Source: Neolentinus lepideus HHB14362 ss-1
Lineage: Eukaryota > Basidiomycota > Agaricomycetes > Gloeophyllales > Gloeophyllaceae
Assembly: GCA_001632425.1 (NCBI GenBank)
Contig: KV425587.1
Coordinates: forward strand, 1 to 60,661
DNA: 60,661 nucleotides
Direction of reading: 5' to 3'
Positions within the stretch are counted from its first letter, which is position 1; each line of letters begins with the position of its first letter. The notes beneath the pieces were generated by a model that saw only the letters and a list, made by a program, of their open reading frames with translations, had not been told where the DNA came from and made no database searches. Positions 1,040 to 51,032 of the stretch are shown here, piece by piece. Both the position numbers and the translations under genes were made by a program.

Positions 1040-1047
1040 CATAGACT

Positions 1048-1236: not shown

Positions 1237-1797
1237 GTAAAATGTGATTATTGCTAATGGAGTTGTCGGAGACAGTGCATTTGACATGAGAGCATTCCCA
1301 TCATAACGGTCCGGCACATCACCAGCCAGGTACTAACTACGCTCAACGATGATCTACAGCCGTCGGCCGTCAATCAGCCCCTCGATTTCTCTAGGTTGTC
1401 TGCTTGCCCTTGTGCATGACTCAAATATTGCCTTATGAACATCGCCATCTCTGCATAGGAACCAGACCTGAGGATGCATCGATCAGTCTTTACACTCAAG
1501 AGTGAGCGTATCGCCGAACCTCTTGGGTACCTGGGTGCCGAGAAGTCGTGGAACTTTATTTTATAGTAAAGTCTACAAGTATTTAGATGTCCAACTCAAA
1601 ATCCGCTTCTATTGGTCACTACAAAATGTCTACAAAACGCGAATTGTAGTGTCAGTTAGTTGCATAGCCACACGATCGCGTTTCCGACGCGTGCACTGCG
1701 GCGTTAGCGCCCACAACGAGGCTTCACCGTGTTGGGTCGTTCACTTACCACCACTCTCTTCAGATTCCTGCAGGACTTGCATTCAGACAAAACTAAC

Positions 1798-19289: not shown

Positions 19290-19502
19290 GTTTACGGAAG
19301 TGTAAGTTTTGGAGAAGAATGCGATTAGTGTATTACTTCAGTCAGTATTGTAGCAATCAGAACAATGTGGAGTGTGATGGTGAGTAATGATTTGTATGCT
19401 ATTGTCTCGTAGTAACCCTTCGTGGTCCTTTCAGAAGGAACTCCCTAGCAAACTAGGACAGAGCGATCGGACACACTAACTAGTAATTATAGTGTGTTGA
19501 TC

Positions 19503-22500
19503 TTAGAGATCCCCATCCTGCTGCTGTGTAGCGTTGACCATCTGCGCGAAGAGGCCGTCCTGTTTGGACAGAAGTTCACTTGGAGAGCCTACTTCCGCAA
19601 TCTCGCCTTTGTTGAGCACAACGATCCGGTCACAGTCCATGACGGTTTCCAGTCGATGAGCAATGGTAAGAATTGTTGCGTGGGCCAGATTCTCCCTGAC
19701 CAAGTTCGTGATGTTCGCACTCGCTGCGTTATCCAGACTTGCAGTCGCCTCGTCAAGAATGACAACCTTGGGTTCCCCGAGCAGGGCCGCAGCGACAATT
19801 ACAAGCTGGCGATGGCCCTGAGACAGGTTCTTCCCACCTGCGGTAAGCTCCATATTCAGATCGAAAGATTCGAGGCCAACCAAGGCGAGCATGGACAGGA
19901 GAGCGGCGTCTGTGGCTTGCCCGAGAGGGTCAAGATTGGATCGAAGGGTCCCGCTGAACAGACCCGAATCTTGCGAGACGCAGGCAATGCTGCTTCGTAA
20001 TTTCTGGACAGGCAGTCCGCGGATATCTGGAGGGTGAAAACTGTCAGAGATGGTTTGGGCCCAGGGCGAGAAGCATACCTATGCCGTCTATTTGCACCAT
20101 TCCCCCGTATTCGACGAGGCGTAGCATGGCAGACAGTAAGGTCGACTTCCCGCTGCCCGTTCGGCCCACGATACCAATATTTTCACCGCTACGAATATCG
20201 AGACTACTGATCTCCAATGCTGCGACGTCCGGACGCGACGGATACTTGACTATCATGTTATTGATCAAGATAGCGCCTGCCGAGGGCCAAGAAGGAGGGA
20301 TATCCCTCAACGCCGGTGTCAATGCGCCCTCAGATGGTAGGTCATAGCAGTATTCGTCTAGCCTCTCTACGGCGTTCATGTTGCTCTCGACCTCTGCGGT
20401 GCTCCGAATCAGAGCGTTGACCTCGTTCGTCAATGCAAAGGCCGAGCTGAGGGCTAAGCCGACTAGGGATCCGGACGCCGACGTCGCTGAGCTAATGAGA
20501 ACCATCGCCAGGGTGACCAGCGATGCGAAGAGCTCGATGCGAAGGAGTAGCCACAGTTCCGCGGAGCGGGAGATGTAGAAGGGTCGATTGGAAAAATCGA
20601 GTAGTTGGAGTGCTGTCTCGTGAGCAGACTCCACTCGGTTGAACGACTTCAGGACTATTGCCCCTTCCAAAGTTTCGGAAACATAGGCGTACAGCGGCGA
20701 CCTGTTTTTGGAAGTCAAGCGCTTGAGCTCGATATTCGCGCTGTGGAATATATACTCTTAAGTGAGTCCACGGTCGCTCGACGGTAAAGTGACTGATTAC
20801 TCACCCCCTGTAGAACGCGTAGATGAGGTAATATATCAAACCCAGAACCGGTACCGTGATTGCTAGATAAGGGCTCGGCCAGCACATGACGATTACCAAC
20901 CCAGCAATGATGAACACTCCTGTGACGACGTTGAAGACCCATACGTATAGCTCGTGGTCAACACCGTTGACATCCTTGCTAAATCGATTCATGATACGCC
21001 CGACGGGATTCGTCTCGAAGAAATGCAAGGGTGCGTGGGCTACTTTGTCTAAAGCCAACTGGTGATAGATGATGCATGCCCTGTATGTCGCAGTAACGAC
21101 GGACATATTGCCAAGCGCTAAAGAGAGTAAGACTCTAGACATAGAATCGTAAGAGGTGTACTCACTCAAGAAGATACAAACGGCAACGCCAATGAGGCCG
21201 TACGCGAGAAGGTACTTTTGATTGGAGATGTGGAAGCTATTGTCATCCCACCAATACAACCAGAGGTTGGAAATAACTATGACCCGAATGAGGTAAGCGT
21301 TCATCATGAAGTCTAGGTAAGACGCACCGACTGCTGTCTGTTGAACTACGAGTATTACCAGGAGGACTACCACAGTCGTAAAGCCACCAGTCGCTCTAAT
21401 GTACCTCAGATATGTTGGCCAAGACACATGACCCTTTCGTCTGCCTTCGGTGACGACGATCTCGTCCTCATCGTCTTCGTCGTCGGCATTCGACAACTCT
21501 ATACTCTCCTCGTTGGATTGCTCTATTTTGTGGATATTGTGGCCCACGTTCGCTATGTCGTGTAACTTTGCTTCGTTGAGAGATGCCAAGATCTCAGTGG
21601 GTTGTCCATTCTCAACTATCGATCCGTTAGATACCACGTATACCTGATCCGCGCCATCTGCTAGTTTCACATCATGGGTAATTAGTAGAACGGTTTTACT
21701 CTTCAGGTACTGAATGGTCGCCTTGAACACTCTGGCCGAAACACGGGCGTCGAGGGCAGAGAAGGTATCGTCCAGAAGATATATATCTACGCCCTCTCGC
21801 TTCAGCACAAACTATTGACTCATCCACGGTGAATAACACACCTGAATCACTGTACAGAGCCCTAGCAAGAGCAATACGCGCCTGCTGCCCTCCACTAAGA
21901 TTTGCAGCTCCTTCAGCGACTTGCGATTTGGCCCCGTGAGGAAGTTGTGCAAGGTCGTCGGTCAGCTCGCAAACTCTGAGGACGGCATTGAAGCGTGCGT
22001 GATCCATAGGTAGACCGAACAAAATATTTCCTTCGATTGTCTGGGTGAGCAACCATGGCTTCTGGGTCAAGTACGCAATCGTTCCTTGGTGGGATACCTA
22101 ACAAGGACGTTAGGTTGCTTAGCCCGATGGGAATACCAAACGCCACGCACTAATCCCGAGACGAGCTCGAGTTGTCCTGCAATGGCCGACAAGAGAGATG
22201 TCTTCCCTGAGCCTACACCTCCTAGGACGACCACGAAACCTCCAACGGGTACTCGCAGGGAAATATCCTTCAACACAGACTCATTGACTTCAACCGAATT
22301 GACATCCGACTTCGATTTCTGCCTGCTTTTGAACAAGAGATTCAGGAAACCGGGGTCTTCCTCAGACGACTCTTCTCCAGTCCTGGACTTGGGCCATCTC
22401 ATGCTTGCATTCATGATCTCAATTGCGTAACTGAGCTGGTCTGATGTGCCAGAAGGTTCCTTTTCTGAGACAATCTCGGATGTTTCGCGAGCTTGAAAGA

Positions 22501-24291
22501 GTTTGCAGGTGCGATCCCATGACACTTTGGCTTGTATGAAAGACCTAGAAGTGCAGTTAATGGACAATGCTTGATTTGATAGATGCTCAATGCAATACTT
22601 ACGACACCAGCTGTGGCAGGAAGTTCAATGGCTCCAGCAATTGTGAGAACAGGGTGAGGGCTGGGAACACGACTGTGGCATCTAACCCATCACGCAGACT
22701 CGAGTATACGATGAAGGTGAACAGGGGCAAGAGAACAGCAGAACACTGCGAGGCGGAGAACAACCCGATGGAGAAGAAGTTCTCTAATCGGACAAACTTC
22801 AGCTGCTTTGAGCGGACTGACGAGATCAAGGACAGCACGTATGGCTCCAATGCTCTGAGCTTGATGATCTTGATGCCTACGAGCGTACATATAAGTCATC
22901 GCACGCCGAGCTCTGTATATATGTCACCGCAGCGAACCTTGCAACATTTCCCGGGTTAATCCGAGCCGTTTGTCCACCACTTCCATTTCGGTTCCGGTAA
23001 GGTTGTACATGAAAGGTGTGATGACAGTTTGTATAAAGATGATGACGATCATGCTTCCGATGCCTGCCCAGATGGCGCGACCGAGGTATCCAGACAATAG
23101 GACGACTGAGACGATCAGCTGCACAATCAAGCCCCAGAATTGTTGCACTAATCAATCGATCCCAAGCAAGTCATTTAACACACAAGTCTTGATGTAGACA
23201 TTACTTACTGTTCTCTATAGCGATACCGATCCGCTCGCTATCCACGTTGATAACGTTCATCACGTTGCCCACAGGGTGGTTCGCGGCTTCTTGATTGTCG
23301 AGACGAAACGATTTCTGGTAAGCGCCGATGATCACCGCCGACTGCATGTTGAGCTGCAATTCTCGCATAATCGACGTTGAGCTTTGAATAAATATGCTCT
23401 TTGACGCCTAATAACATCTAGTATCAGCATCGTGCTCGCTGTATATGATATGAGAATTACTTGTAACGCAAAGAGTATGAAGGCAAGCCCAACGCCGGTA
23501 TGTATACGCATATTTGGACTCACGAATGAGGAGACTGGTGGGCTCTGGTTGCTCAGGTACAGAATTGTCTGCTGAACGAAAATCGGTAGAGTGAGACCAC
23601 AAGCCACCCCGCATCCGTAAAGTATCGCTGCAGCTATCCTGGGACGTCTCTATCATCACTACCACGCCCATGCCACGACAGATGATCCTTACCATTGAAA
23701 CCAGTACGGTCGCACCATCGCACGCAAAAGAGAGGGAGGCTTCGCACTGGCATCGGCATCCTTGGATCGCTGCCAGTCGAGGATGCCTTTCTCGTATGGG
23801 TCCAAGATCCGCTTTTTAATATAGGAAGCGAGCATGGGCCTGCGGAGGAGGTACAGGTCCTCCTCGAACAACTGGCGGCGGGCGCCTTGCCTGCGCACGG
23901 TGGGTCAGCAGGATATTGTATTAATGTCTGGGATACCGTACGTGCCATATCAGCGGAGTCAGCCATTCTAGGGTGAAGAACGAGAAGATGTTCGGGTTGA
24001 CGGTTTTGCTCGTCTGCACGCGCACTGGCTGAGCATCGACGGTAGAGATGGAAGGCGTAAAGGCCTTCTCCTCCTCCTTCTCGATGGCGCTCTGATCTGT
24101 GTCCGTGCCCGATGCAGTCAAAGTGGGAACATCCATGGCAGTAGCAGAGGACCAAAGACAAGTGGGTGGCTTTTGATGCTCTGCGCAAACGTCACCCCAG
24201 GTACTACTCTTTCCGAAGCTGTGCGCTCACCTTGAACCACGGGCGATGGTGCAATTCCACTCACGGAGTAGCCCTGATCTCCCGTCCCCAT
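19503..24291 (-). CDS. ABCC-type (MRP-like) full ABC transporter
   Basis: Minus-strand gene with many short introns, of the usual ABCC full-transporter size. The first exon is 24291-24231 (MGTGDQGYSV), joined across a 50 bp intron to an exon at 24180 containing MDVPTLTASGTD. TMD1 runs from about 23.9 to 22.6 kb. NBD1 has Walker A GGVGSGKTS, Q-loop LTQKPWLLT, signature NLSGGQQARIALARAL and Walker B DIYLLDDTFSALD. A long acidic linker (DDEDDEDE) follows. TMD2 includes FFETNPVGRIMNRFSKDV. NBD2 has Walker A GRTGSGKST, signature NLSQGHRQL and Walker B VVILDEATASLD with H-loop TIAHRLE. The product should be a plasma or vacuolar membrane exporter. Next to an NRPS and an aminotransferase on the same strand, product efflux or self-protection is the likely role. 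The NBD2 signature is degenerate. An out-of-frame ATG at 24311 precedes the proposed start. Confidence 0.88.
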
Positions 24292-24518
24292 GCAGAGATG
24301 GCGATGTTCATAAGGCAATATTTGAAGCACACACGAGGGCAAGGGGATAACCTGGAGAAATCGAGTGTTGATGAATCGGGTTGATTGACTGTCGAGCGTA
24401 GTTAGTGGTTTGTACCTGGATGGTGATGTGTCGGATTGTCACAGTGATGGGAATGCTCCCATGTCAAACGCACTACTTGAACCGTGTTTCAGAGAACTCC
24501 ATTAGCAATAAATCATAG

Positions 24519-24953
24519 TCGGCTGACCGTGTTTCATGATCCGACCGCAGAGGGATTGGATTTATAATTCGTAAATCTGCGCAGCGTCGGGCTCGAACGA
24601 GTATCGATGCAACAAATGCGAGCAACTGGATCCGATCACTTACCGAAATTCGGCAGATGTCACGGTCACATTGTCTATTAACGAAACCATTTTTTGGTTG
24701 CAAAAAAATGTCGATTTTGGAGCTGTTTTCCAATACTAACTTCATTTCTTTGGCTCTACTCTGTAAATTATATCTCTGGACACTGAGTACCTATCCCCGA
24801 CAAAAATTGGAAATTGACGAAATTCACAAGCTGTCACAGATCACATGAATGGACCAGATGAGTCACGTGTCACCGTGGGTGCCGAACCGATCGAAACCGT
24901 ACCTATCAGCATGCAGTGGCTGTACCATCCCGGATCAACTCTTTCTCACTTGC
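24519..24953 (-). promoter_or_regulatory. Upstream region of the ABC transporter with conserved blocks
   Basis: Blocks 24519-24612 and 24900-24953 are kept almost unchanged in the left arm although surrounding DNA has diverged. They lie 230-660 bp upstream of the transporter start on its strand. The first contains a TTATAAAT sequence that could serve as a core promoter. The function is inferred from conservation only. Confidence 0.35.
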
Positions 24954-24962
24954 AGTCTATCA

Positions 24963-25030
24963 CACTTCGGGAGTTGCACTCTTTTGGACCCCGCAAAAGG
25001 TTGATCGGAAGGGATATCGAAAAGGTTATA
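24963..25030. mobile_element. Remnant of the CACTKCGGGAGT MITE family
   Basis: CACTTCGGGAGTTGCACTC followed by GCAAAAGGTTGATC matches the end and inner arm of the intact element at 60221-60350. The insertion is absent from the left duplication arm at the equivalent place, and its terminus coincides with the breakpoint of similarity between the arms. Only one end is recognisable. Confidence 0.55.
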
Positions 25031-25664
25031 TTTAAGAATACATTCTAGAGGGCTCAAAGAAACTCGCCCCTGAGAACTCATGCACCCACAATTGCCCGGG
25101 CAGACTCTCAAATCTGAGTGCGTGTATGGAGGATATGGCGTTGTCCTTGCGTAATATTAGCGATGACGCGCAATAACCATTATGTAGCACGAAATTTACA
25201 ATGAAATGATGGTGGCGTCGACAGTAGTTGGCATCAGAATTCTATTAATATTTACTAGACAAGCGCCGACTAACCTTCGCCCCTGCTCGGGAATGTAACC
25301 AGTACTGTGTGACTATGAACATTTGTCGTCGCAACAAATTATTGGGTGTGGCTCGAGGATTTTGCACGTGAAAGCGCCATGCAGTCGACTTGAAACATCG
25401 ACACAAACTTGATTGCTACACTGTACGTGCTGAATACCAATATTACTACGTGTCAACATTATGGAGTTGAACAAATCATGGACTGCTGTCCCGACATGAC
25501 CTGCCGTAACTCGGTACTACCCTTCCAAAACAACATTACAATATTGTTTCGCAGTCAGCCATGCGTCGGAATAACTCATTATCAGAAAAACAAACGTCCA
25601 AGCTTCACCGGAATGACACTTGTGAGACTAAGATTACAAGAATCCAATCACGAGAAGACAGATA

Positions 25665-27232
25665 CTAATTTGCTCCGACTGCCTCTGCAATGCCCCGTGC
25701 CAGAAGGTCAGCAGCGTCAACCACTTCCTCGGAGGATATTGTCAGAGGTGGCAGGACACGTAGCACCGAGCCGTGCCGCCCACCGCGTTCAATAATCACC
25801 TTGTGTTTATCGAACATGATGGCCTGGACTTTCTGTGCCAGGGTGCCGTCTTCAATTATTGAATCGGGCAACACGAGTTGTACACCCAACATTAGACCCT
25901 ATGAATTTTCGTCAGCTTAAATTAATATTGAAAAATACTATGGCTTACCCTGCCACGGATGGAAAGAATATGCTGCTTGATGCCGTACGTGTAGGCACGC
26001 TCGAACAGGTGTGATTTGAACAATTCACCCATGCGCGCCGCATGCTCCCACATCCTCGTTTCACGCATGTGAGCAAGAACACGGGCACCAGTGACAAGCG
26101 CAAGCTGATTGCCTCTGAACGTCCCGGCGTGGCTCCCGGGCTGCCACTTGTCCAATTTTTGATCGTAGACGATGCACGCTAGCGGCATGCTGCCCCCGAC
26201 TAATTATAGCTCTAAGTATCCGAGTGCGTGGGAAGAATAACGTGATGTAGATCTCACCGGCTTTGGACATGACGATGACGTCAGGTATCACGCCCGCATA
26301 CTCGAAGGCGAAGGGCGTGCCGCTCCTGGCAAACCCGCTTTGGACTTCGTCGAATATGAGCGGGATATCGTGCTCAGTGGCAAGGCGCCGCAGTCGTTTC
26401 AGCCACTCCCTGGGCGCGGGCACGACCCCGCCTTCGCCTTGGATGCACTCGACAATGATTCCAGCGGGCTTTGTCATTCCACTCTCCGGGTCAGCAAGCT
26501 TGGTTTCGAGCAGCGACGCGCACAGGTCGGCAGTAACCTTGCTGTCGGTAACGCTCGAGCCAAAAGGCGACTTGTCGGGGTGCGGGAAGGGGAAGAACGC
26601 AATATCCGCTAGCGCACCCGTCTTGAGCTGCGATTTTGTGTCGGTGTTGCCCATGGCGGCGAGAGAGCCGGAAGTGTGCCCGTGGTAGCCGCCGTCGAAG
26701 GCGATGATGGTGGACCTCCCGGTCGCGATGCGGACGAGCTTCATGGCGGCTTCGACGGCGTCGGAGCCCGAGGGCGAGGTGAACTGGATCTTGCCGGTGG
26801 ACGAGAGCGGGGCGGGGATCCAGCGCCACAGCTCTTGGACGAAGGCTGTCTTTGCGGTCGTTGCGAGGTCCAGACATTGTTGTGGGAGCTGGGAATCTAC
26901 GTAGTCGAGGATAGCTTGACGGACGATGGGGTGATTGTGACCCAGGGGAAGTGCACCTGCGCACTGAAGAAGGTCGAGATACTTGTTCCCTGTGTTATCT
27001 TGTCAGATGTCTGCAATAATCACTTTGCATTGGATGGCGTACCGTCCGTGTCGTACAACCAAATGCCGTCGCCCTTGGCAAAGGTGCAAGGGAATCTGCG
27101 AGCATAGGTGCGTGCATTGGACTCTACAGACGATAAAGCGAACGGCACGACAGCACCGTGACCACCGTTGGTTTCTTTGTGAATGGCATCAGATTCGATG
27201 AGGCGACTAGTAGACTCGGCAACTGGAGACAT
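25665..27232 (-). CDS. Class III PLP aminotransferase, diaminobutyrate-aminotransferase-like
   Basis: Four exons (27232-27043, 26998-26258, 26199-25949, 25898-25665) sum to 1,416 bp, giving 471 residues in frame. Class III features: YDTDDNTGNKYLDLLQCAG, GALPLGHNHP, FTSPSGSDAVEAAMKLVR, GGYHGHT, IIVECIQGEGG, IFDEVQSGFARSG, PLP lysine in MSKAVGG, and GTFRGNQLALVTG. The GTFRGN motif and overall order resemble the Dat/EctB group, which transfers an amino group from glutamate to aspartate semialdehyde to give L-2,4-diaminobutyrate. 4-Aminobutyrate or ornithine aminotransferase activity cannot be excluded. It is divergent from the NRPS across a 1.24 kb shared intergenic region and lies upstream of the ABC transporter on the same strand, so it may supply an unusual amino acid to the NRPS. 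No mitochondrial presequence is evident, so a cytosolic location is likely. Its 3' end is duplicated at 1-369. Confidence 0.87.
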
Positions 27233-28474
27233 GGCGAATGGGGCTCAGTACGAGGTCAAGAACGACTTTAAAATCTTCACGCAGTCACAGTGACAGCGCT
27301 GGACTATTCACTGTAGCATAATAGCTGGTTCATCTGATATTGAACCGTTGGGGAGTCGGGCTCGGGCGTGTCTCACAGCGCCGATTTCCACCAAGTGTAC
27401 AATAGTCAGTCGCAATTCCATTCCAGACATCCGTGGTTACTGGATCATTTCGTGGGATGTGCAAGTCTGGAATCTGGATGCATCTCAGTGGCAGGGCACA
27501 TGCCGTTCAGTGAAGGGATGATTCAGGCCGGTGCCTCAGACACCAAACGTACCTGTTGAGGATGGAGGTCCGATCATCAGCAACGCTGCGCATACTTTAC
27601 GCAAATCGCGATCAAGGTTTCAGCCCTGCTCGCTAAAGCTGTCCAGGAGCATGTGGAAGTGCGCGTCTGTGGGATGCGGGTCTCGGATTAGAGATATTAA
27701 AAATCAAGACAGCTCACATTTGTTTGAAATGATATGTCGCAATTTGATGGGCACGGAGCCACACAAGACAGCCACATTTGTTCGAATGACTGTGACAGTA
27801 TCACGTCTGTAACAGCGCGATGCCGGCGGCAATCGGTTGATCGCCTTTGGCATGATTTACAGGGACGCGTCTCGGTCTGTACTGCCTTGCTGCTAAGTTT
27901 CTTTAAATCTCGAGGTGATCGCGACGAATTTCAGCTTCAGATCTGCCGCAGCTACAATGTTCTGAAAGGGTACAAATAAACGTTTCTATGCTTTTCAACG
28001 GTGCCCAATGTCCTCGGTCTCCACCGTGCTACAGGCGAGTTTCACAGGCCGGTCTGTTTTGAAATGATGCATCAAGGTTACTGGATCGTCGAGGGACAGT
28101 TAACCTCTATGATAGAAGTCCCCAGGATCACTTACTGATGCAACGTGATTAATGTGCCGTGTCAGACAGACCGATGCGTCGCCAAACGGAGATACCCAGG
28201 AGCTGGCGGGCAGTACGCGCTGCATACTTTTCACAGTCACAGTAATGATGGTGCCTAAGTGCCGACGGACCGCGGAGGCACAGGTGAGCACACAAAGTAC
28301 TCGAATGGTCGCGTCACTGTATGAGGACGGGACCGGGAGGTCTGTATAAGACCTCCTGCTCCCCCGCTCTCTGTCAAACAATTTCGACCCTTGAGCCAAC
28401 CGCTCCGAACAGTTTGTCGTCGCCACTAATAATAACTGCCCGTCTTTTTGAGCTACAAGTTACTTTACCGCATA
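27233..28474. promoter_or_regulatory. Bidirectional promoter region between aminotransferase and NRPS
   Basis: No gene seen in 1.24 kb. A 25-26 bp imperfect direct repeat (AAGACAGCTCACATTTGTTT-type) occurs at 27706-27731 and 27765-27789. A TATAAG box at 28345-28350, set in a near palindrome (28339-28355, AGGTCTGTATAAGACCT), is placed about 125 bp before the NRPS start. This is the natural site for co-regulation of the two genes. Confidence 0.45.
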
Positions 28475-31400
28475 ATGTCTACCCTATCATTAAAGTGGGT
28501 TTTCTTTGACATACATGGGCGATATGTGGTGATATTGACAGAACATGCAGACCCTGTCCGACAGAGTCCGGTGGCTCCTCTCGCATCGATCCGCCGCGTC
28601 TTCCAGTCGAAGTTGCAAAAGCCGTCGCTCACGCGGTCTTTCTCGAGCCCGGGGAGAGCATAGCGTACGTGTCGGCCGCTACGCCTATGCAGGCGGACAT
28701 GCTCAGCGTCACTGCTCTGCACGCGCGCGCGTACGTGGGCTCGACGGTGTGGTCCATCAACGCTGTCGTCGAACCTGAACGAGCGCAGGCCGCGTGGAGT
28801 GCGGTGGTCGCGGGCAATGGCATCTTGCGCAGCCAGTTTGTGGCCAACGGGCATGGTATTTTCCGTGTCGAGTTGGGGGAGGTGCATCCGAGTCGGACGG
28901 AGCTGCAGCGGCTCTGCTGGGACGATGACGACGTTGAGGTCATCCAAGAAGGGTATATAAAAAATGAGGCCAAAGTGATTAATATACTCGCGGAGGTACG
29001 TTACCTCTAGCCGATACATAAACTGTATGCTGATTGTTTGCACAAGGGGACGAAGCAGACTGTGGTGACGGCTGGTCTTGCCCCTCTTCCGAAGCAGAAT
29101 AGTTCGCGTTTCGTCGTCACCATGCATCACGCAATGTTCGACGCAGCTTCGCTCAAAATGCTCATCGAAGATTTCATCTCTGCGTTATCCGGTCTCCCCA
29201 TCAGTCGGCCTTCGTTTGCTCAGTATGAAGCACACATTTCGTCAGTCCAGGACCGCGAAGAGGCGAAGAAGTTCTGGACCGAATATTTGGCGGACGCACC
29301 GTTCGACAAGGCGTCGGATGCAGCTGCGTCTGGGAGACGCATGCGACGTCTACCCGAGTTTCCGGTAGGGAATGTCAAAGAGCTCCAGAGGGCCGCCCGC
29401 GCTCTGGGGACCACTGCACCGAGTTTGATTCGCACAGTCTGGGCACTGACCCTCGTCTTAACTACTTCCGAATATAGCCACATTTTTACCGAGGTATTCA
29501 GCGGTAGAGACACTCCTCTCGCCGATGTGGACCGGTACGTCGTCAGTTCGGTTTTAGACGATCATGGTTCTGATGATCTTTGATAGGATCATGGGCCCAA
29601 CTATCTCCACCCTCCCTTTCCGAGCCGAAGTGAAGCCTACTCAGACCATCAAGGAACTCGCCGAAATTTTACAGGAAGGCTACTTTGACATTATCTCTCA
29701 TCGGCAGGTCTCTCTAGGGGAACTATCGCAGTGGCTCAATGTCAAACAGGCCAAGCTGTTCCGGACCTTTATCACCCTCAACTTCGTTGTTCAGAACGCT
29801 CAGATGGGCGAATATGACACCGAGTTCTTGAGGCACATTTCACCAGTCGAGTTCGAATTGGCTGCCGAATTCAACAACAAAAACGGCGTTCTGTATACTT
29901 TGATATCGCACGACTTGAACGTGGTGCCGCACGAGACGGCATTGACGGCAAAACGACATCTCCCTGCTGTTTTGCAGAGTTTCCTCGACAACGCCGAAAC
30001 GAACTTTGCAGAGCGAACTACTATCCAGGATTTTGTGAAGGCACAGATAGCTCAGGAGGTGTTACGTGTCCTGCCATTCGAAGAGGGAGAGAAAAGGCCG
30101 GTGCCGTACACTAGTGTCATCGAAGGGTTCCTTGCGCAGGCTCAGCGAGATCCGGACGCCATAGCTGTCGAAGAGAGTGCACGTCATCTCACCTATGGCG
30201 AATTAGAGAGACGAAGCGAAGGCCTGGCTCATCAGCTGATAGCCCTTGGTGTCGGGAAAGGTTGTCTCATCCCTGTGCTTGTGCACAGGGAGATAACGAT
30301 GGTGGTTGGGATCATGGCAATCCTCCGTGCGGGTGCCGCATACCTGCCGATTGACGAGGAGACTCCCAGCGCTAGGATTCGGAGCCTCATAAGAGACTGT
30401 CGCGCAGATGTCATGGTAGTGACGTCCAGGCAAGCGTTGCATGACCCGCCGGAAGCGTTCAAAGACGATCTGAAGGAAGTCTTCATTGTCACCGAGCGCG
30501 AAGGCCGTGAAGTGCGCAGGGAGGCGCCGCTACCTGTCGTAGACGCTTCGGACCCCGCGTTCGGGATTGGGTCGTCTGGGACGACGGGTACACCCAAAGT
30601 CAGCATAAGCCGCCACCAGCCGCTGGTGAACGTGCTCCATGAGTCCGCGGGAAGCTGGCTGTCCTCTCCTGGAGACCGTGTCGGGAACTTCATGGGTCTC
30701 GCATTTGACTGCTGCGTCGGTGAAATATTCTCCACCCTCATGTTCGGCGCCACTCTTGTCCTGCGTGATGACAATGTTGATTGGGAGAGCACCATTGAGA
30801 CTCTGGACTATCTCCAATTCACTCCCACCGGTCTTCAGCGAGTGAAACCCCGGTCGTTCCCGAAACTCAAGCGTATCACGCTTGCTGGTGAACCTGTACC
30901 TGCCGCGTTGCTCAAGGCTTGGCTTGACGTTGTGCCCACTATCATAAACATATATGGGCCCAGCGAGTGTACCGTTCATACTAGTTCCGCTACGCTGCGA
31001 CAGGACCAGGATATCACAGTCGGCAGGCCCATCCCCAACGTCATTTGTCGTATTCTTGACGATAATATGCAACGGGTGCCTATCGGCATGAAAGGTGAAC
31101 TCTGGATTGGCGGGTATGGCGTTGGAATTGGGTACCTGAACAAGCCGGATTTGACGGCGAAGAAGTTTATCGCTGATCCGTATTGTGAAGGCGGGAGATT
31201 GTATGCCTCCGGTGACATGTGTAGATGGACTGAGGACGGAAGCATTTACTATATCGGTCGCAAGGATCTTCACGACGACATCAAAGTCAAGGGTCGTCGT
31301 TTGAACCTGGACGAAGTTTCGTATGTCATCTCACAGCACCCGGAAGTCAAGTTCGTTGCGGTTTTCGTCAAGGATGAGAGAATCATTGCGTTCATTGCTC

Positions 31401-34400
31401 CGAAAAGTGTGGATATCGACGGAGTACGGGACTCCTGCGCCGAGGTGCTACCCCATTACATGGTCCCGGACGTGTTCAAGGCCGTCAGCCAGTCAGACCT
31501 GCCAATGACGCGTAATGGAAAGGTGGATAGAAATGAGCTCGAGAAATTACTTGTCGAAGCGGCACCTACTGACATGAGAGCTCCTTCCTCAACAGTGTCG
31601 AAACTGGTTGCCAAGGTCTGGGCTGAGGTCCTTGGAATCGACGTGTCCATGATCGGAATGGATACCTCATTTTTCCAGTTGCCAAACGGCGACAGTATCA
31701 CAGCCGTCAGGGTGGCAGCCGCCCTCACGGCCGCCGGTCACAAAGTTTCCGCCTCGCAAATATTCAAGTTACAAACCATCTCGAAGCTGGAAAGCTATCT
31801 TGGCGTGTCGGCAGTAGCCGCACCAGTCGTGCCTGTCATTCCGAAGACAAAGCCTCAAATACCGTCATCGGTCTCCTTCAGTACGGTGGCGGCTGTGATG
31901 GCAGAACTTCGACATGTTGGTATCAGAGAGGATACAATCCAGGACATTTTGCCAGCAAATCAGCTGCAGACCGGCTTAATTCTCGCGCTTATGCAGGACA
32001 GATCAAAATACGCTACTGGACGTATGTGGAAAGTACGGTCCGATCGACCCATTGATGTCAGCAGGCTCAGCATATCCTGGAAGCGCCTTTTGAATCACCA
32101 CTCTAGCCTTCGAACCAGATTTGTCACGACGCAAGACGGGGTCTTCCAAGTAAGTAAATTTTATATGTCTTCTATCGTTGTTCGCTCATGCTGACGACGT
32201 GTATACAAGGTGGTAGTGGAAGATGCTGACCAACGAGCTCCTTTGGTATTGGGTCAGAAAGACGAAACCGAATGTCGTCAACTTCTCCATCAGGATCTCC
32301 AGCGTGGTTTCGAGCTCGGTCAACCCATGGCTCGTCTTACGATCATCAAGGGATCGAATGGCTCTGCAAACTTCATAATTATGACCCTTCACCATTCTAT
32401 TTATGATGGCTGGTCCATGGGCATCGTTAAATCGGATCTCCGAGCATTTTGCTATACGATACCACCTAGCCCAGCACCCTCGTATAGAACCTTCACCGAT
32501 TATATCCTAAGCGCCTCTGAGGCGGACGCGGAAGTCTACTGGACGAAGTACCTGGATGGTGTTATACCCTCGGACAGTTTGTCTCTCCCTGCATCTCCAA
32601 CGTCCGGAAAGTCGAACACGGTCAATCGGCTCATACGCATCCCTCCCGAGTCCATGCGAGCGGCGTGTGTCCGCTTTGGTATCACGCAAGCTACCCTGGT
32701 GAACGCTTCCTGGGCAGTGATACTCAAGCTTTATCTCAATCGTGAAGACGTTATTTTCGGGAACGTGCAAGCTGGGCGGAGTGTCCCAGTGCCTGATGTC
32801 GACAAGATGGTCGGCCTCCTTCTCGCAACCGTCCCCGTTAGGATTCGGTTTGAGCGGGGCATGACTATTCGCGACCTTCTGAGCAACGTGCAATCTTCGT
32901 ACATGGGAAGCTTGGATCATTGTCATGCGGGTCTTGTCAATATCCAGAAATGGGCTCGTCAGGATGGTCACATGTCTCTCTTTCATACACTAGTAACGTT
33001 CGGCACCGCGGAGGCGAAGGACTCGTCGAAGACTGATGCCTTCATTCTGGAGGACCGGTGTTGGTTGGGAGACGTTACTGAATACGGGGCGGACTTGACA
33101 TTCGTTCCGCACGAGGAAGGATTACAACTTGAGTTCGTTCATAATCCGAACATGATTGACCAAGTTGCAACCACGGACATCGTCGATGAACTGGAGCACT
33201 TGCTCAGGGTTATGGTCTCCCCTGAAAATGACGGTATGGTAGTCGACGACATTCCGCTTTCCGTGGATCAAATGCGACGATTCCGAGAGTTCGGGTATGG
33301 CGGTGCATCTACAACACCATTCCAGACCATGCATGGCGGTTTCATTTCTGCGGCGTCGAAATATACAGACCATGTTGCGCTAGAACATTACGGTATGAAG
33401 ATCACGTACCGGGAACTGGACAACTGGACCAATCACTTAGCTTGTCAGTTGCAGAAGACTTTGGGGATAGTGCCGGGAAAGTTTGTTGGACTCCTGGTGG
33501 ACCGAAGTATCGAGTTCGTGGTAGGCATGTTGGCAGTCGTCAAGGCTGGAACCGCGTTCGTTCCCTTGGATGTCACATTTCCAGAGGAACGTATCCGCTA
33601 TATGATGTCTGCAGCGTACATCACGTATGTACTGACGACGGAAGCCATCCATCACGAGAGGGCGCATCTTCTCGAGGGCCTGCCGTATGGGTTTATTGGA
33701 ACTACGCCTTCAAAAAAATCAGATTTGCCTAAAGATATTGCTCACGGGGAAGACTTGTCTTACATCATCTTTTCCTCTGGTACCACAGGCAAGCCAAAAC
33801 CGATCGCATGCCATCACTCTGGCGCCGTCAACAACATCTGGTTCCACCCGGCGATGAAACACATACGTCCAGACACTCGTATTGGTCAGATGCTAGCCAT
33901 TAGCTTTGACGGGACTCTCCAGGAGGTTTTCGGAGGACTGTTCACTGGGGCAACAGTAGTGATACGTGAAGAAGATGCGTTTTCTACGATCAAGAAGCTC
34001 GACGTGCTCAGCCTCACACCTAGTGGTTTACAGCAGCTGGATCCATACGATCATCCGAATCTGAAATGTATTTTCACTTGTGGAGAGGCTCTTCCCAAGT
34101 CTCTAGTTGACAAGTGGAGCACGAAAGTGGCACTGTACTCTGATTATGGTCCGACCGAATGCTGCATCAGTACGTCGTGCAATTCCACTCCGTACTCGGG
34201 TGATATGCCCATCACGCTTGGCCGACCGTTCCCAAACATGAGTATGTATGTCCTGAATGGCGAAACTCGGCGACCTGTCCCTATAGGTGTCACAGGAGAG
34301 CTGTTTATTGGTGGAGTGGGTGTAGCTGCCGGAGGTTATTATGGAAGATCTGATCTCACGAACGCGAAGTTCGTTCAGGATCCATTTATGCCGGCCGGTA

Positions 34401-37400
34401 ATCCAAGAGAAATGATGTACCGAGCTGGCGACTTGGTGCGTTGGCTGCCGCATGGCGAGTTGCAATTCCACGGGAGAGATGATACACAAGTAAGTGCCAT
34501 GTTGTTGGCTATGGTATAATGCGCTTACGTAGAAGCACAGGTGAAACTGAAGGGATACCGAATCGAGCTCGAAGAGGTGGCCTCAGTAATGAGGGGTGTC
34601 ACGGGCGTGGACGATGCTCTTGCTATGATCCGAGGGACGAATAATGGACAAATTCTGGTCGGATTTGTCTCGTCGAAGACTGTCGACGTTGAGGCTGTGC
34701 GCCGTGCTTGCATGACGTCTTTGCCATCATATGAGATTCCGTCCGAGATTATATGTCTCCCCGAGTTCCCGATGACAAGCATCGGGAAGATAGATCGCAG
34801 CCGTCTGAGCCGTATTGAGGCGCCAAAATCGACAGAATCTCCTGCATCCCCCACCGAGCTGGCCGTCCAGCGTGCAATTGCTGCTACCCTTGGTATTCCT
34901 GTCGACACGGTTGGCCGGCAGACATCATTCCTTGCTCTCGGCGGCGACAGCATCAGCGCCATCAGACTTATGTCGAAGGCTCGAGCGGAGGGACTTAATC
35001 TCACGGTTTCTCAAATATTTAAGTCGCCAACGGTTGCAGCACTAGCTGAGATAGTGGGCGACGCTCAGAAGCCGACTATTAAGTCCCCGCACTTCCAAGG
35101 GGAAATTACTGGAGACGTCCCTCTATCACCTGCCCAGGCTCGCTTCTTGACGAACGCGAAACAGTTGCACCACTATAATCAAAGCCGTCTTTGTCGACTC
35201 AAGCGCCGACTGGAGTTTGCCGACCTTCAGCAAGCAATACCACGTTTGTTGATGCAACATGATATGTTAAGGGCTAGGTTCCAACGAAACGGCAATGAAT
35301 GGAACCAAGTTGTTGCTCCTGCCGGGACCGAGACTAATACGGCTTCAGTCCAGCATATCCAAGTCCAAGGGGATGTGCACGATGAAGTGCTGCGGTTGAG
35401 TAAGACTCTCAACATTCTGGAGGGACCGCTGTTCCTCATTGCATTGATCGAAGTGAGTCCGCAACGCGGAGCCGCCAACAGCTGAACTGATCTTTGTCTC
35501 CAGGACATTGAACACCAGTACCTCTTTGTCGCAGTCCATCACCTGATTGTGGATATCGTATCATTCAATGTTTTGCTTGAAGATCTTGAAAGGGCTCTTC
35601 TCATGATGAAGCTTGAGCCGAAGACCACTCCTTTCGGCGCATGGACAAGACACCTGTCGAGATTTGCGGATACTTACAATCCGCAAGAGTGGACCAGATT
35701 CTTGTCGAACGATGCAGATGGTTCTGTATTCACCAAGTCCCAAGGGTGTGTAGGGTGGCCGCAATAGTTCTGCACATATCTGATCTTATTCGTCGAAACA
35801 GTTTATCCACTGGACGGCGGAAGACCATCAAATCCGTTCTGCCCATGCAGCTATGTGAAGGCCTGAACGCATTAAATGTGGCCTACGATTGCAATACGCA
35901 GGATGTTGTATTGACGGCATTGACCTTAGCTTTCCATGAACTCACTAGTCTGGGTCCTTTCGGCATCTGCGTAGAGTCGCATGGTCGGAGTGTGTTCGCC
36001 GAGGACATGGACATATCTAGGACAGTCGGGTGGTTCACTTCCACGTATCCTGTCATCTTGGACCTTCGTTCAATGCGGTGTACCGAAGATGCACTTCGGG
36101 CTGTGCGGGACCAGCTTCGTTCGGTACCAGATCAGGGCACCTCGTACGAAATGCTCAAGTATTGCACATCTCGAACAGATGCATCCCTGATCAAACGACG
36201 CTCTCTCCCGCACATAGAATTCAACTACTTTGGACAGGCAGCGAGCGTCAAGTCGGAGCTCCTTGAACCTATCGACCTGCCACTCGATGTGGACCTTGAC
36301 GTCGACAATGTCGATTTCGGGATTGTCTGTTCGGTATACCTGGAAGAGCATGGCGGCATGGTCATCGAGTTTTACTTTGATCCAGGGTTGTACGACGAAA
36401 CTATCTTGGCGCGATTTGGACAGGAATGGACGTCCCGTATGGAAATCATTCTGACCAGCTCTTCTTTGCCACCTCACTTGCCTGTCGTTGCCACTGGTGC
36501 AGTCGACAAGGGGACGTTTGACGAAATCGACGCCGAACTCTCCGCTGCCGGTCTGATGCCCTCAGATATTGAAGACTTGTGGAAAGCCACTGCTGCACAG
36601 TCTGCGTTCTTCCTAAGCCTTATGAAGGCCTCCGATCAGTACGTCTCGCAGACCATCTACGAGTTTACCGGAGGAATCAGTGAGCAGGATCTCATCAGGG
36701 CCTGGAAGGCTCTGGTGAGTGTCAACGTCAATTTCCGAAGTACCTTTGTCAATACTTCTGAAGGATTGTATCAAGTCGTGTTGCGATCCTCGGCGGCGTC
36801 GTCTAATGTGACCGTTCTGCAGTGGCCTGAAGAGCGAATGGATGAGATCCAGACGAGCTTCCTGCATGAAGATCTCTCTCTTGGTTTCGATACCAGCTCG
36901 CCGTACTTTGCGCGGATGACCATTGCTCGTATAGGTTCAACGAATCGATGGCGCTGCGTTTGGACACAGCACCACTCTATCAGTGATGGGTGGTCTCATG
37001 CCCTGGAGTTTGAAGACTTTTTAAAGGGATGCAGTGGTAAGCGACTGACTGCGCGGAAGCCGTCTTTCAAGGACTATGCGATGCAATTAAATGCCATCGA
37101 GTCAGCTGCAGCTCGTGTTTACTGGCGACAGGACCTGTTCCGTGACCACAAATGCTCCCCGTTCCAATTCCCAGAGCCCTTACCTTCTGATTCTCACCAC
37201 GGCCTTGCAGATGTCTCGATCAGCAAGAGAACTTCCAATGTGATGGGACCTCTCTCCCGCTTATGCTCGAGCGTCGAGACAACACTCTCTACCCTTTTGA
37301 GAGCGATATGGGCGTTAACGGTATACCACTATACAAAAGAGCAGACGGTTATCTTTGGTGCAATAGTCTCTGGACGCGATGCTGTGATCGATGATGCAGA

Positions 37401-40400
37401 CCAAATTCTTGGGACGTTGGTCAACACAGTACCTGTGGCTGCCCGAATCGATTCGCATGGAACGCTCTTGTCTCTGCTTCGGGATCTCCATAACCAGCAT
37501 GTGGAATCCCTGGCGCACAATCATGCGACACTGAGGGATATCATGAAATGGAATGAGATCTCCGATCTCACGTCGTTCTTCACCACAACCCTAACCTTCC
37601 AGGTAAGTAGAGACGATACACGTCTTAAGTGTCTGAGCTTGACAGGAGTTTTTAGAATTTCCCTGCGACGGAATCGAACGACAGTCTACCATTCGACGTG
37701 CAAGTCATACAAGCCATCGAGAACACCGAGTTCGACATCAATGTCAACTTGATGTGCGTCGAAGATGCCATCGAGGTTCTCATGACCTTCAACTCGCACA
37801 AATTTGATGTTCACCACGCCCGTGGTGTCGCAGAGAAGTTCGTGGATTTACTGGAGCTAATCTCCGGACCTAGCTTCTCCATCGCCACTCCCCTGAAGGA
37901 CTTGAACTCTGTGAGCCAATTTGATCTTGCGCGCTTACAAGAAATGGAAATTGGTGAGCCCATGGAGCTTACCTATCAATGCGTACATCACGGCTTCGAA
38001 GCACACGCTCGCCGACAGCCGCGAGCTGTTGCCGCCGAGCACGGAGAAGAGACCATTACCTACGGAGAACTGAACCGTCTCGCTGATGCTGTCGCTCATA
38101 GGCTTCAGCAAGAAGGCGTGAAGCGAGGTGACATGGTCCCCTTGATTACCACTCGATCAATTGACATGGTGATCGCCATCATGGCCATACTCAAAGCTGG
38201 TGCTGCTTACGTACCAATTGATAAAGATTACCCAACAGCCAGGATCGAAGACATTCTCGTCTCGGTCAACCCAACCGTTGCGTTGTGTCATCCTTCGACG
38301 GAGCATGCAGTACCAGGAGCCACCACGCGTGTCATCTCAATCTCACGGACATCGGCCTCACTATTGCCCCAGTTAAAGCCCCGTTCAGTTTTGGTAGATC
38401 GTGATGATCCAGCGTACGTGATTTTCACGAGCGGAACGACTGGTGCGTTTTATATGACTGTAATTATTGTTGGCAGATCTGACCTCTGCGACAGGTAAAC
38501 CTAAGGGTGTGATATGTGTGCATCGAAGTCTAGTGAATGTTGTGATGCAGAGTCCCCGTGCCTTCGGCACTGGTCCAGGCAGCCGGGGAGCCAGCATACT
38601 GTCTGTCTCGTTCGATATGGGTACCTGGGAAGTTCAGTCGTGTCTATTCAATGGAGCAACAGTAGTCATGCGTAGTAAGCAAATTTTCCTTCTTCTCTGC
38701 GACCGGTCTTTAACAGCTATGCAGAGGGGCCCACGCTTGATGTCCTCCGAACGGTGGACACTGTTTTTATCACCCCTACCATCCTCTCTCAGCTCTCCAG
38801 AGATGACCTGCCCAACATCAAGAGTATCGCTGTATCAGGAGAACCATGCCCCGCACAATTGATCCAAACGTGGGCGCCTCACGTCCGATTCTACAACTCG
38901 TGCGCACCTTCGGAAACGACAATCATATCCTTCTTGGACCAGATGCGTGTTGACCGACGCATCACTATGGGTAAACCACTACCCAACGTCAGATGCTATA
39001 TCCTGGATCCGGCAACGATGAAGCGTGTTCCCTTCGGGTGCAAGGGAGAGGTGTTCATCAGTGGCACCTGCGTCGGCCGAGGATATCTAAAAATGCCGCA
39101 GCTCACTTCTGAGAAATTCCTGCCAGATCCTTTCACTCCTGGCCTGACAATGTTTAGGTCTGGCGACGTCGGAAGATGGACGGAGTGGGGAGGTGTCGAA
39201 CACTTCGGCCGAATGGACGATCAAGTGAAAGTGAAGGGCTTCCGAATCGAGCTGTTGGAGGTTGCGAATGCTCTGCGTCACCACAAGGATGTCCAGCAAG
39301 CAGTCGCCTTGGTTAAGAACGGTAACCTCGTCGCCTTCGTCACCCCTGAAAGTGTGGACGTCTTGGGCGCCCAAGATACGGCTGCCAGATATGTACCCGA
39401 GTACATGGTGCCCTCAAAAGTAACAGCTGTGCGAGTTCTTCCAATGAATCGCAACGGCAAAGTCGATAAGGAAGCTCTGCTTAACCTCGACCAGGCGCCA
39501 AAGGAGAGCAAGAAAGCCACGCATTCGTTGGATGATGTTCAAAGAATGTACGCGGAGATCTGGGCGTCTGTCCTTAAAGTAGATGCTCGTACTATAAAGG
39601 GTGATACCACCTTCAAAGAGCTCGGAGGTGACAGGTAAGGCAGTTACATTCGTCTGCAACAGAATGTCCTCTCAACGTCTTTTTCCATCCAGCATTAGTG
39701 CTTTGCGCGTCGTTGCTGCCGCTAAGAAGCGTGGCTTCAGTGTCAAGCCTAGTCAGGTCGCCGATCGTAAGACCTCTCTAAGCGCCCTCGCTGGTGCCAG
39801 TACAGGCAGCCCCGCTGAATCACAAACTTCGCTTGTTCCCTCGAAGCCCGCGAAGATACCAACGTCTGGCGATACGCCCTTGTCACCCGTCATGAGATGG
39901 TATTTTTCCCTGAACTGGAGGAATGTTGGCTGGTGGAATCAGAGTTTCTGTGTGACACCACGCCAGCGCATCACTTACAGTTCCTTCTCGCAAGCTGTGG
40001 GAGAGATAGTCAGGAATCACGATATTCTGCGGGCCACGTACCGGAAGCAGGGCGGTTCTTGGTCTCAGGTAATCGTACCTGAGACAGAGCACACTGTTGC
40101 AGTCAAGCATATCACAGTCTCGTCGTTCGACGAACTAGACTCGCATGTGAGAAAGCTTCAGCAAGAGATCGACGTATACCATGGCCCACTCTATCAGGCT
40201 GTACTCTTCGAGGACGCGTCTCAGCAACGAATCTGGATAGCTGTGCACCACATCTGTATTGACTTGGTCAGTTGGCGTATTCTTATGGAGGACTTGGAGC
40301 TTCTACTCCGTGGTGAGAAACTCGGACCGAAGACGACTTCCTTCCATGAATGGAGTCATCGTCTGCAGCAATATGCTTCAGCACTGAATCCCGCATCTTT

Positions 40401-41919
40401 CATCGAGTACTCGAGGAGCCTTCTCGTGGACAATGACGCCTTCGTCAGGAGACTACTACGCCCTGGTGCACCATCACTCGCTGTCGTTGAAAGAGGCCGC
40501 GAGATGGCTATAGGCATGGCCTCAATCTCCATCGGTTCTGGCATCGAAGATCTCTTGAACAGAGGCAACCAATTCTACAACACAGGCGACCAAGACTTGC
40601 TCCTCGCTGCGCTCCTCATGTCCATTCGGACTCGATTCGGCAGCATCGCTGTTCCACTCGCCATCGTGAGCCATGGTCGCGTACCATACGCCGAAGACCT
40701 GGATGTCTCTCGCAGTATCGGGTGGTTTAGCACGAGCAACGGCAGCCCGCACACGTTCGATCTCTCCGGCACACCCACGGATGTCGCCTCGCTGGTTGAG
40801 TACGTCCAGACGTCGCTCTCCTCATTCGCCCAGGAGGGCTTCGACTACCAGGCTGTGCGCTGGCTCACCGAGGCAGGCGAGCACGACCGCGATCTTCGCA
40901 GCGCTGACGCGGACGTGTGCTTCAACTACTTCGGGCGGTGGCAGGTGTTCGCCAAGGACGCGTTCTTCAAAGAGGACGGGGAGAGCATCCGGAACCCGGC
41001 AAACTACGCGGACGTCGAGATCCTGCACAAGCCACTTTCGATTACTGGGCAGGTTACGCCTGAAGGGACATTGCAGATGGATGCGGAGTTTTACAGCGAG
41101 ACGTATGATGCGGAGGTGATCAAAGATGTTATGGAGGGGTGTAAGGCGAGTCTGCGCGAGATATTCACAGCGGCGCAGTTGAATCCTCCTGCGGACCTAT
41201 TCATGTCGCCGTCGCTCGCTGCCTCCACATCTGCGGTGGAAGAGGCTCCTGCACCTCAAGTAACAGCGGATGCAGAACTCGAGCAAGTGCGCGTCTCGCT
41301 ACCTGGAGGGCTTCTCGAGTCGCCGGAATTGTCTCACTTGCACCTTCCCATCCCGGATATTGCCATCAGCCTCCCGACTCCGATCCAGAAGGAAGCTACT
41401 ACCCCACACCTCTCCATATTCGACACCCTCGAGCGACCGGCTCTCTCGCACGCCGTGTCGACGAGTTCCACTGTATTCGAGACCGACCCGCACGAGTCAG
41501 CCAGGTTCGACGCCGTTACTGATCATGGCCGCCACGAGGAGTCGAAGATGGAGACTGAGACTCGAGAGCGCCGGCGCCGCCCGTCGTCGGAGCGGACCGC
41601 GGTCTCGAGAGAGAGACAGTATGATGACGGGCGCGAACCGGCAGCGCTCGAGCGTATCGTCGCGAACGTGCTTGCGCTCGTCAACACCGTCCTGGAAGGC
41701 AACCGCGCGCTGAGTCCTGCTAAGGAGGGTGACTCGCCTGTCTTACTTCATCCTCAACAGCCCGCAACGCGATTTGGGATCGCCACCGGCAACTCGGACG
41801 CGCTGCTACTCATAGGACTGGGATCGCTCGTGATGGGCTTGACGGCGGTGCTTTCGGCGGTGGTGTTGATGAACGCGGGGCTGCTCGCGGGCTTGGTGAT
41901 CTTGGTTGCTAGAGCATGA
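28475..41919 (+). CDS. Three-module non-ribosomal peptide synthetase with C-terminal membrane tail
   Basis: Twelve exons: 28475-28494, 28542-28995, 29047-29534, 29587-32149, 32210-34489, 34541-35452, 35504-35745, 35802-37602, 37656-38442, 38495-38674, 38725-39634, 39693-41919. They total 12,864 bp in frame, giving 4,287 residues. Order: C1 (about 50-490; HHAMFD at 185), A1 (490-1000), T1 (Ser1024, NGDSI), C2 (HHSIYDG at 1236), A2 (1543-2040), T2 (Ser2072, GGDSI), E1 (2122-2560; HHLIVD at 2251, ESHGR, FNYFGQ), C3 (HHSISDG at 2710), A3 (3027-3520), T3 (Ser3546, GGDSI), E2 (3603-4050; HHICIDLVSW at 3731, VSHGR, FNYFGR). A charged linker follows, then a hydrophobic tail (4248-4287). A domains activate amino acids as adenylates, T domains carry them on phosphopantetheine, C domains condense and E domains invert stereochemistry. 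All three A domains keep SGTTG and a C-terminal GK(V/I)D lysine. There is no TE, reductase or terminal C domain, so the release mechanism is unknown. Three residues are expected. A cytosolic enzyme tail-anchored in a membrane is inferred. Confidence 0.93.
41799..41916 (+). other. Hydrophobic C-terminal tail of the NRPS (predicted membrane anchor)
   Basis: The last 40 codons contain almost only Leu, Val, Ala, Gly, Ile, Met, Ser and Thr, with no charged residue between Asp4248 and the final Arg. This is long enough for one transmembrane helix or a tight hairpin. It follows a linker of about 190 residues rich in Arg, Glu and Ser. A lone C-terminal helix is typical of tail-anchored proteins facing the cytosol. 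Confidence 0.75.
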
Positions 41920-50674: not shown

Positions 50675-51032
50675 GTATCGGAAAGATTATGTACAAGAAT
50701 GTGTGCATTTAGTGTCGATCAAAATGTAGTATTCTACTGCACCTCAAAATAGAGTAAAAAATACTATCTTTGGCTGTACCTACCAAAAATTGTCTTAAAT
50801 ATAGTTCTAATATTATATATTATTTAGACCGCATTTATAGTATATCCCGGCAGGGCTGCACCAACCGGAATATAATATTTTGGAAATATAAAAAGGTGTC
50901 ATTAGAATATACAATATTACAATTACATTTCAGACAATTTTGGTAGGTACAGACAAAGATAATATTTTTCACTCTATTTTGAGGTGCAGTTTTGATCACC
51001 GAATTCATTCTCGTGTATAAACTTTCCGATAC
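50675..51032. repeat. Outer inverted repeat enclosing the 255 bp MITE
   Basis: GTATCGGAAAG..GTACAAGAATG at 50675-50701 is mirrored by CATTCTCGTGTATAAACTTTCCGATAC at 51006-51032, and GATCAAAA near 50717 is mirrored by TTTTGATC at 50989-50996. This looks like an older palindromic element into which the inner MITE inserted. Confidence 0.5.
50736..50990. mobile_element. 255 bp MITE with about 60 bp terminal inverted repeats
   Basis: ACTGCACCTCAAAATAGAGT at 50736-50755 begins an arm of about 60 bp mirrored, with a few mismatches, by the stretch ending CTCTATTTTGAGGTGCAGT at 50990. The centre is AT-rich without an ORF. The termini are CTGCACC/GGTGCAG. The target duplication is unclear (possibly TA). 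High arm identity suggests fairly recent activity. Confidence 0.8.

Follow-up and report, generated by a model that had tools for sequence, protein, structure and literature searches.

Positions 1 to 60,661 of contig KV425587.1 (here C37; 272,126 bases) in the genome of the basidiomycete Neolentinus lepideus HHB14362 ss-1 (order Gloeophyllales; 33.8 Mb in 168 contigs), hereafter the window, carry a trio of genes coding for a non-ribosomal peptide synthetase (NRPS), a class III aminotransferase (AT) and an ABCC-type transporter. As the best explanation of this locus we propose a lineage-restricted pathway for non-ribosomal peptide synthesis in fungi, with the divergently transcribed AT-NRPS pair at its core. 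With middling confidence, we further propose that the NRPS is a membrane-tethered enzyme of fungal type, whose product would be a short peptide carrying one epimerised residue and, probably, diaminobutyrate as one of its constituents.

Gene structures were predicted with a splice-aware gene finder of our own build, trained on long NRPS exons, which placed the transporter at 19503-24502 (minus strand), the AT at 25665-27232 (minus strand) and the NRPS at 28321-41919 (plus strand; 4,287 codons with the stop counted). The deposited N. lepideus protein P0001, 99% identical to the predicted NRPS, shifts the start to 28475; the 4,287 residues given in a preliminary description of this DNA thus agree with the codon count of our own model, stop included, and not with the 4,284 amino acids of the deposited one. 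This identity, together with the 49-79% identity to relatives, rules out chance for the NRPS. Introns of the NRPS and AT genes are 50-60 bases long with GT-AG ends, and the in-frame stops at 32192, 34517 and 35483 were rejected as signs of recoding or of a pseudogene, each lying inside a GT-AG intron of 51-60 bases. The models are:

28475-41919, plus strand: NRPS copy 1, 12 exons, 4,284 amino acids (exact spliced match to P0001, Pfam by exon, own prediction)
28475-28494, 28551-28995, 29047-29534, 29587-32149, 32210-34489, 34541-35452, plus strand: NRPS copy 1, exons 1-6 (spliced match to P0001)
35504-35745, 35802-37602, 37656-38442, 38495-38674, 38725-39634, 39693-41919, plus strand: NRPS copy 1, exons 7-12 (spliced match to P0001)
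25665-27232, minus strand: class III AT copy 1, 4 exons at 27043-27232, 26258-26989, 25949-26199 and 25665-25898 (spliced match; family search)
27233-28474, no strand: intergenic region common to the divergent AT and NRPS genes; a 1,116-column run from 27093 is identical between the two copies described below

Scored exon by exon with Pfam (PF00668, PF00501, PF13193 and PF00550), the NRPS gives the order C-A-T-C-A-T-(C/E)-C-A-(C/E), with C, A, T and E denoting condensation, adenylation, carrier and epimerisation domains. The third T, which is split by an intron and has no Pfam score, was read by eye (FKELGGDSISALRV). Tree placement and alignment to solved chains of TycA, bacitracin synthase and PvdL alike identify the two C/E calls as E domains. 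The resulting three-module order, C-A-T-C-A-T-E-C-A-T-E, bears out that of the preliminary description, including its two E-type domains. With C, A and T core motifs in repeated modules (again counting the third T), the protein is a multimodular fungal NRPS. Its domains, all on the plus strand, are:

28650-30049 (start approximate): C1, motif HHAMFDAAS (PF00668 pieces 29095-29538 and 29579-30049; residues 41-461)
30134-31138: A1, pocket DCGQTAIVH(K) (PF00501; code by motif anchors)
31607-31801: T1 carrier (PF00550)
31940-33211: C2, motif HHSIYDGWS (PF00668)
33350-34333: A2, pocket DGQSFCDIS(K), the same in three species (PF00501; motif anchors)
34865-35053: T2 carrier (PF00550)
35111-36459: E1, catalytic Glu present (VESHGR; alignment to TycA E, E clade in tree)
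36583-37871: C3, motif HHSISDGWS (PF00668)
37995-39089: A3, pocket DMWFASSII(K), A5 motif NSCAPSE (PF00501; motif anchors)
39868-41169: E2, an E-type domain with Val for the catalytic Glu (IVSHGR; PF00668, alignment, tree)
41788-41916: C-terminal hydrophobic tail, a possible membrane anchor (most hydrophobic 19-residue stretch of the NRPS)

A database search with the NRPS recovered 615 proteins at E <=0.001 among 1,546 candidates, and three enzymes stand apart among the 120 matches listed: that of N. lepideus itself, one from Heliocybe sulcata (P0002, named acetyl-CoA synthetase-like protein; 79%) and one from Omphalotus olearius (Q2VJ19, putative NRPS; 49% over 84%), with all others at <=29%. 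The Heliocybe protein has the same domain order, except that the last carrier before E2 is doubled (T-T, by eye) between about residues 3500 and 3710. The Omphalotus protein shares C2-A2-T-E1-C3-A3-T-E2, a Val in E2 and a similar hydrophobic tail, but has a further A-T unit following module 1 (4,762 amino acids) and an A1 pocket that differs at four places. O. olearius also has a relative of the AT, the putative aminotransferase Amo1 (Q2VIS5; 68%). The NRPS-AT family is thus small, spans at least three mushroom genera and is already deposited under names only; the candidate new pathway of the preliminary description is not supported as worded, given the NRPS and AT relatives in Omphalotus and the NRPS and transporter relatives in Heliocybe.

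The tree comprised 237 condensation-type domains, namely the 15 of the three orthologues and 222 picked from the other 754 (769 were found in the 120 matches listed). E1 and E2, which are sisters (0.892), fall inside a 60-tip clade (support 1.0) holding all 35 sampled non-fungal E domains, all 8 fungal ones and 11 rule-labelled C domains, and for each of the five C/E domains the sequences of the three species form a clade of their own (support 1.0). C1, C2 and C3 belong to a group that is mostly fungal and whose inner nodes are weak (0.138 for C1+C2, 0.70-0.79 for several). A bacterial origin of the NRPS, also considered, is unsupported, given the fungal grouping of its C domains.

Aligned to solved E domains, E1 has Glu and E2 has Val at the Glu of the EGHGR-type motif, a residue that we take to be catalytic from work on TycA and GrsA; the Val of E2 and the Glu of E1 are each kept in all three species. 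Among 110 E-labelled domains of the listed matches, a label that required the [GS]HGR motif and leaves domains with the motif wholly lost uncounted, Glu precedes [GS]HGR in 106, the three with Val are exactly the three E2 domains, and the remaining one, a doubtful call, has Asp. In the same alignment the solved TycA chain 9bfg has Ala at the Glu position. Both E1 and E2 match the E domain of TycA and gramicidin S synthetase 1 over most of its length, and the likeness extends to a protein ending in an E domain, whereas in E2 the catalytic Glu is missing and a hydrophobic tail comes after the domain. With Val in place of that Glu in the three species alike, E2 is unlikely to be an epimerase, although some activity is conceivable because it keeps the HHxxxD histidines; E1 has both HHxxxD and the Glu. 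The two epimerisations implied by the architecture in the preliminary description are therefore weakened at E2.

Hydrophobicity per 19-residue stretch peaks at the extreme C-terminus in all three proteins (Kyte-Doolittle 2.44, 2.59 and 2.55). In the window this tail shares one open exon with E2 and is thus no splice artefact, and the second NRPS copy likewise ends in VARA. We suggest that the tail probably anchors the NRPS to a membrane. No thioesterase, reductase or terminal C follows E2 in either the exon-wise Pfam scan or the Pfam list of P0001, so that release would need another protein or hydrolysis.

The AT-NRPS pair is present twice. Window positions 25783-42302 recur inverted, at 97.7% identity, on a second contig (C135), whose bases 41542-41792 equal bases 1-251 of C37 (251 identical bases), so that the contigs join; AT and NRPS thus stand in mirror image with ~23 kb between the arms:

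24284-42302, no strand: duplicated segment, ~18 kb; inverted copy on C135:25269-41792 plus C37:1-1462
C37:1-369, plus strand: 3' end of the second AT copy, the rest lying on C135:40343-41792; the reading frame closes in the window
1-1462, plus strand: decayed terminus of the inverted second copy of 24284-26033 (identity in the self-BLAST pieces drops from 96% to 78%)

The second AT crosses the join and is open to its stop; the second NRPS shares the 12-exon structure of the first and exceeds it by two codons. Both copies are intact and under purifying selection, with dN/dS between them of 0.186 for the NRPS (4,285 codons) and 0.102 for the AT (469 codons), stop codons counted. Identity is patchy, being 100% at 27134-28133, 93% at 29134-30133 and 82-83% in the AT-side flank at 24284-25598, and the longest identical runs, of 1,116 and 848 columns, compare with a maximum of 690 in 5,000 shuffles. 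Gene conversion between the arms is the best explanation of these runs, with read collapse in assembly as the alternative. That the two contigs are merely allelic is ruled out by the 251-base identical overlap, the second AT spanning the join, the inversion of the copies and the unlike outer flanks; the "ss-1" of the strain name presumably denotes a single-spore isolate. The contig of the second NRPS copy also carries, by eye, a Copia-type retrotransposon polyprotein encoded by a single open frame of 1,605 residues (C135:8476-13293, minus strand; L009-L010) and, downstream of the NRPS, a predicted cyclopropane-fatty-acid-synthase-type methyltransferase-like protein (C135:18957-21249, plus strand).

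The AT scores 435.3 bits against TIGR00709 (diaminobutyrate-2-oxoglutarate transaminase), passing the cut-off of 401.6, which supports its earlier assignment as a diaminobutyrate-type transaminase and contradicts its earlier designation as divergent. Its three best solved relatives are the diaminobutyrate transaminases 6rl5, 9s1q and 9s1p, and the alignment has SK at what we take to be the site of the pyridoxal-phosphate lysine. Unlike these enzymes it is a putative transaminase encoded by a fungal, intron-bearing gene beside an NRPS. A search matched 7,675 of 8,000 candidates; among the 120 listed only N. lepideus and O. olearius Amo1 are named fungal, the rest being bacterial-named or unnamed, and the closest named non-fungal relatives are bacterial. 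In the AT tree the fungal entries form a clade (0.997), next joined by P0123, P0126 and P0127 (0.997). Since no other named fungal protein occurs among these 120 matches, the AT was likely acquired by transfer from bacteria.

Substrate pockets were read by motif anchors, in GrsA numbering. All three codes are identical between Heliocybe and N. lepideus, and the A3 code differs from that of Omphalotus at one place. Across whole domains, identity to Omphalotus is 66% for A2 and 63% for A3, and 35-51% for the other six domains compared (A1 47%, C1 35%); by this reading the A2 and A3 pockets are conserved and that of A1 is not. We would guess that A2, with a polar pocket, Asp322 and an identical code in three species, is the likeliest diaminobutyrate site; its nearest solved structures, linear gramicidin synthase A and TycA/GrsA, are uninformative on substrate. 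The ten-residue code is reported, in the abstract of PMC2644324, to fail for fungal ferrichrome synthetases, and on that account we place low weight on the codes.

Based on these features we posit that the AT, as its family suggests, most likely forms L-2,4-diaminobutyrate, with aspartate semialdehyde and glutamate as substrates, and that the NRPS would activate three residues, perhaps with diaminobutyrate loaded by A2, and join them through C2 and C3, with E1 epimerising residue 2. The N-terminal C1, in which HHxxxD is intact, may attach an acyl cap or take over an upstream piece. E2 may now serve docking or release while the tail probably holds the enzyme at the membrane, and export or compartmentalisation of the product may fall to the nearby ABCC pump. 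A bolder version, unlikely to hold in full, would be that of an anchored NRPS whose terminal E lost epimerase catalysis and was kept since the parting of Gloeophyllales and Omphalotus as a membrane-side release or hand-over module, in a family making D-diaminobutyrate peptides with a bacterial-derived transaminase.

The place of the transporter in this pathway is less clear:

19503-24180, minus strand: ABCC-type transporter (predicted model to 24502; likely start Met near 24136, by eye; deposited model shorter, 1,114 amino acids)

That NRPS, AT and transporter adjoin agrees with the preliminary description: our gene prediction places no housekeeping gene between transporter and NRPS, and no further gene of any kind between transporter and AT. 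Of the compact three-gene cluster described there, the divergent AT-NRPS pair is real and present twice, but the transporter coding region, its start read by eye, falls outside the duplicated unit. The transporter has one close locus in the genome, other loci reaching <=48% over short stretches; this and the other genome searches were run exon by exon, so that their counts are lower bounds. Its database search matched 1,713 of 7,990 candidates, and among the 120 listed the best besides N. lepideus itself are from Heliocybe (83%) and Mycena epipterygia (59%), others being <=37%. Two distant relatives, P0246 and P0249 (Astraeus odoratus; JGI entry), are fusions of an ABCC transporter with an adenylation domain at the N-terminus and a carrier-like stretch; they were dropped as cluster relatives, their adenylation domains matching the NRPS at 25% with an E-value of 1e-5 (P0249) or not at all at 1e-3 (P0246).

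Several observations weigh against the proposed pathway or parts of it, and the alternatives draw on them. The AT falls below the cut-offs of four narrower diaminobutyrate-transaminase models (495/671, 432/753, 383/438 and, for EctB, 359.5/552 bits), no Heliocybe AT occurs among the 120 matches listed of 7,675, two of the three members of the P0121 sequence cluster are accounted for, and the codes of A1-A3 match no code that we know of, including any for diaminobutyrate. The peptide pathway could therefore stand with an AT that feeds it no diaminobutyrate and instead supplies a different omega-amino building block or belongs to another path. We regard this as somewhat unlikely, as the AT passes the TIGR00709 cut-off, lies divergently beside the NRPS, was duplicated with it, is like it under purifying selection and has, like it, a relative in Omphalotus. 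As for the anchor, which was judged by Kyte-Doolittle score alone, the runner-up stretches lie inside folded domains and score 2.02, 1.97 and 2.16 respectively. Were both E domains active, the product would hold two D-residues; E2 does retain HHxxxDxVSW and its seat in the well-supported E clade, but a Val in three of three species where E1 always keeps Glu makes this distinctly unlikely.

That the transporter is simply an unrelated neighbour is an appreciable possibility, if still the lesser one. Besides its position outside the duplicated segment, its relative in Mycena epipterygia comes from a species for which the 120 NRPS matches listed include no member of this family, and hence the pump may not be dedicated. 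On the other hand, the Heliocybe NRPS (P0002) and transporter (P0242) are both on contigs of 1,540,913 bases, taken as one contig, and nothing was predicted between transporter and AT in N. lepideus. Far less probable, indeed very improbable, is that the NRPS is a hydroxamate siderophore synthetase of unusual layout. Ferrichrome synthetases (such as Sid2, Fer3 and Fso1) are likewise large multimodular fungal NRPSs, but consist of A-T-C units with terminal T-C repeats and no E domains, an order unlike that of the N. lepideus enzyme. The genome has 18 condensation-domain matches: 8 in the window NRPS, 8 in its C135 copy, and one each in an aminoadipate-reductase-like gene (C9) and an acyltransferase-like gene (C7), both identified by eye from predictions. 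The two copies are thus the only condensation-domain NRPSs found in this lower-bound search and no ferrichrome synthetase is visible, which counts for this reading; moreover, the basidiomycete NRPS reports named in the part of PMC8358039 consulted are ferrichrome ones. However, ornithine N5-oxygenase has only two genome matches (24.4 and 23.8 bits; cut-off 21.3), and the NRPS neighbors a transaminase, neither an oxygenase nor an acyltransferase. The preliminary description's separation of this enzyme from ferrichrome synthetases is accordingly upheld, and so is its attribution to a basidiomycete. Phosphopantetheinyl transferase has two genome matches.

Around the trio, Pfam scanning gave any match in 5 of 10 stretches submitted, one of these having only WD40 models below cut-off. 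To the left of the transporter, stretches contain domains of inositol-phosphatase type, PPR and TCF25, and right of the NRPS, more distant, is a Rna14/Suf-type stretch. The predicted TCF25-type gene (16343-20000, plus strand) overlaps the transporter 3' end, and its last exons are doubtful. Minus-strand predictions at 8270-9937, 30203-33768 and 36070-41999 (scores 17.6-23.5), lying over plus-strand genes, were discarded as shadows. tRNA and Rfam scans of the window gave no matches. Short self-reverse-complement matches (75-78%) at 50736-50990 and 60220-60351 are possible palindromic elements.

In the portions of the open-access literature covered, which include parts of PMC13126170, PMC2823734, PMC7399148 and PMC4332364, we found no description of this NRPS or its product, although a 2009 chapter by Eisfeld on Omphalotus A domains may describe Q2VJ19; to that extent the pathway looks real and uncharacterised. 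The family was already recorded in databases, by name only, for the Omphalotus NRPS and AT. New here, and beyond the preliminary description, are the inverted and conserved second copy, the hydrophobic tail and the degenerate terminal E domain with its missing Glu; the deposited relatives are likewise new with respect to that description.

Few basidiomycete NRPS products are known, and the review PMC7725599 describes such peptides as largely under-represented in basidiomycete studies. The present NRPS family spans Gloeophyllales and Omphalotus, with an adjoining enzyme likely to make a non-protein amino acid. As apparently the sole condensation-domain NRPS of its genome, it would allow a clean product search by gene removal once both copies are gone. 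Furthermore, the conserved Glu-less terminal E domain and hydrophobic tail raise the question of how such enzymes release their peptide.

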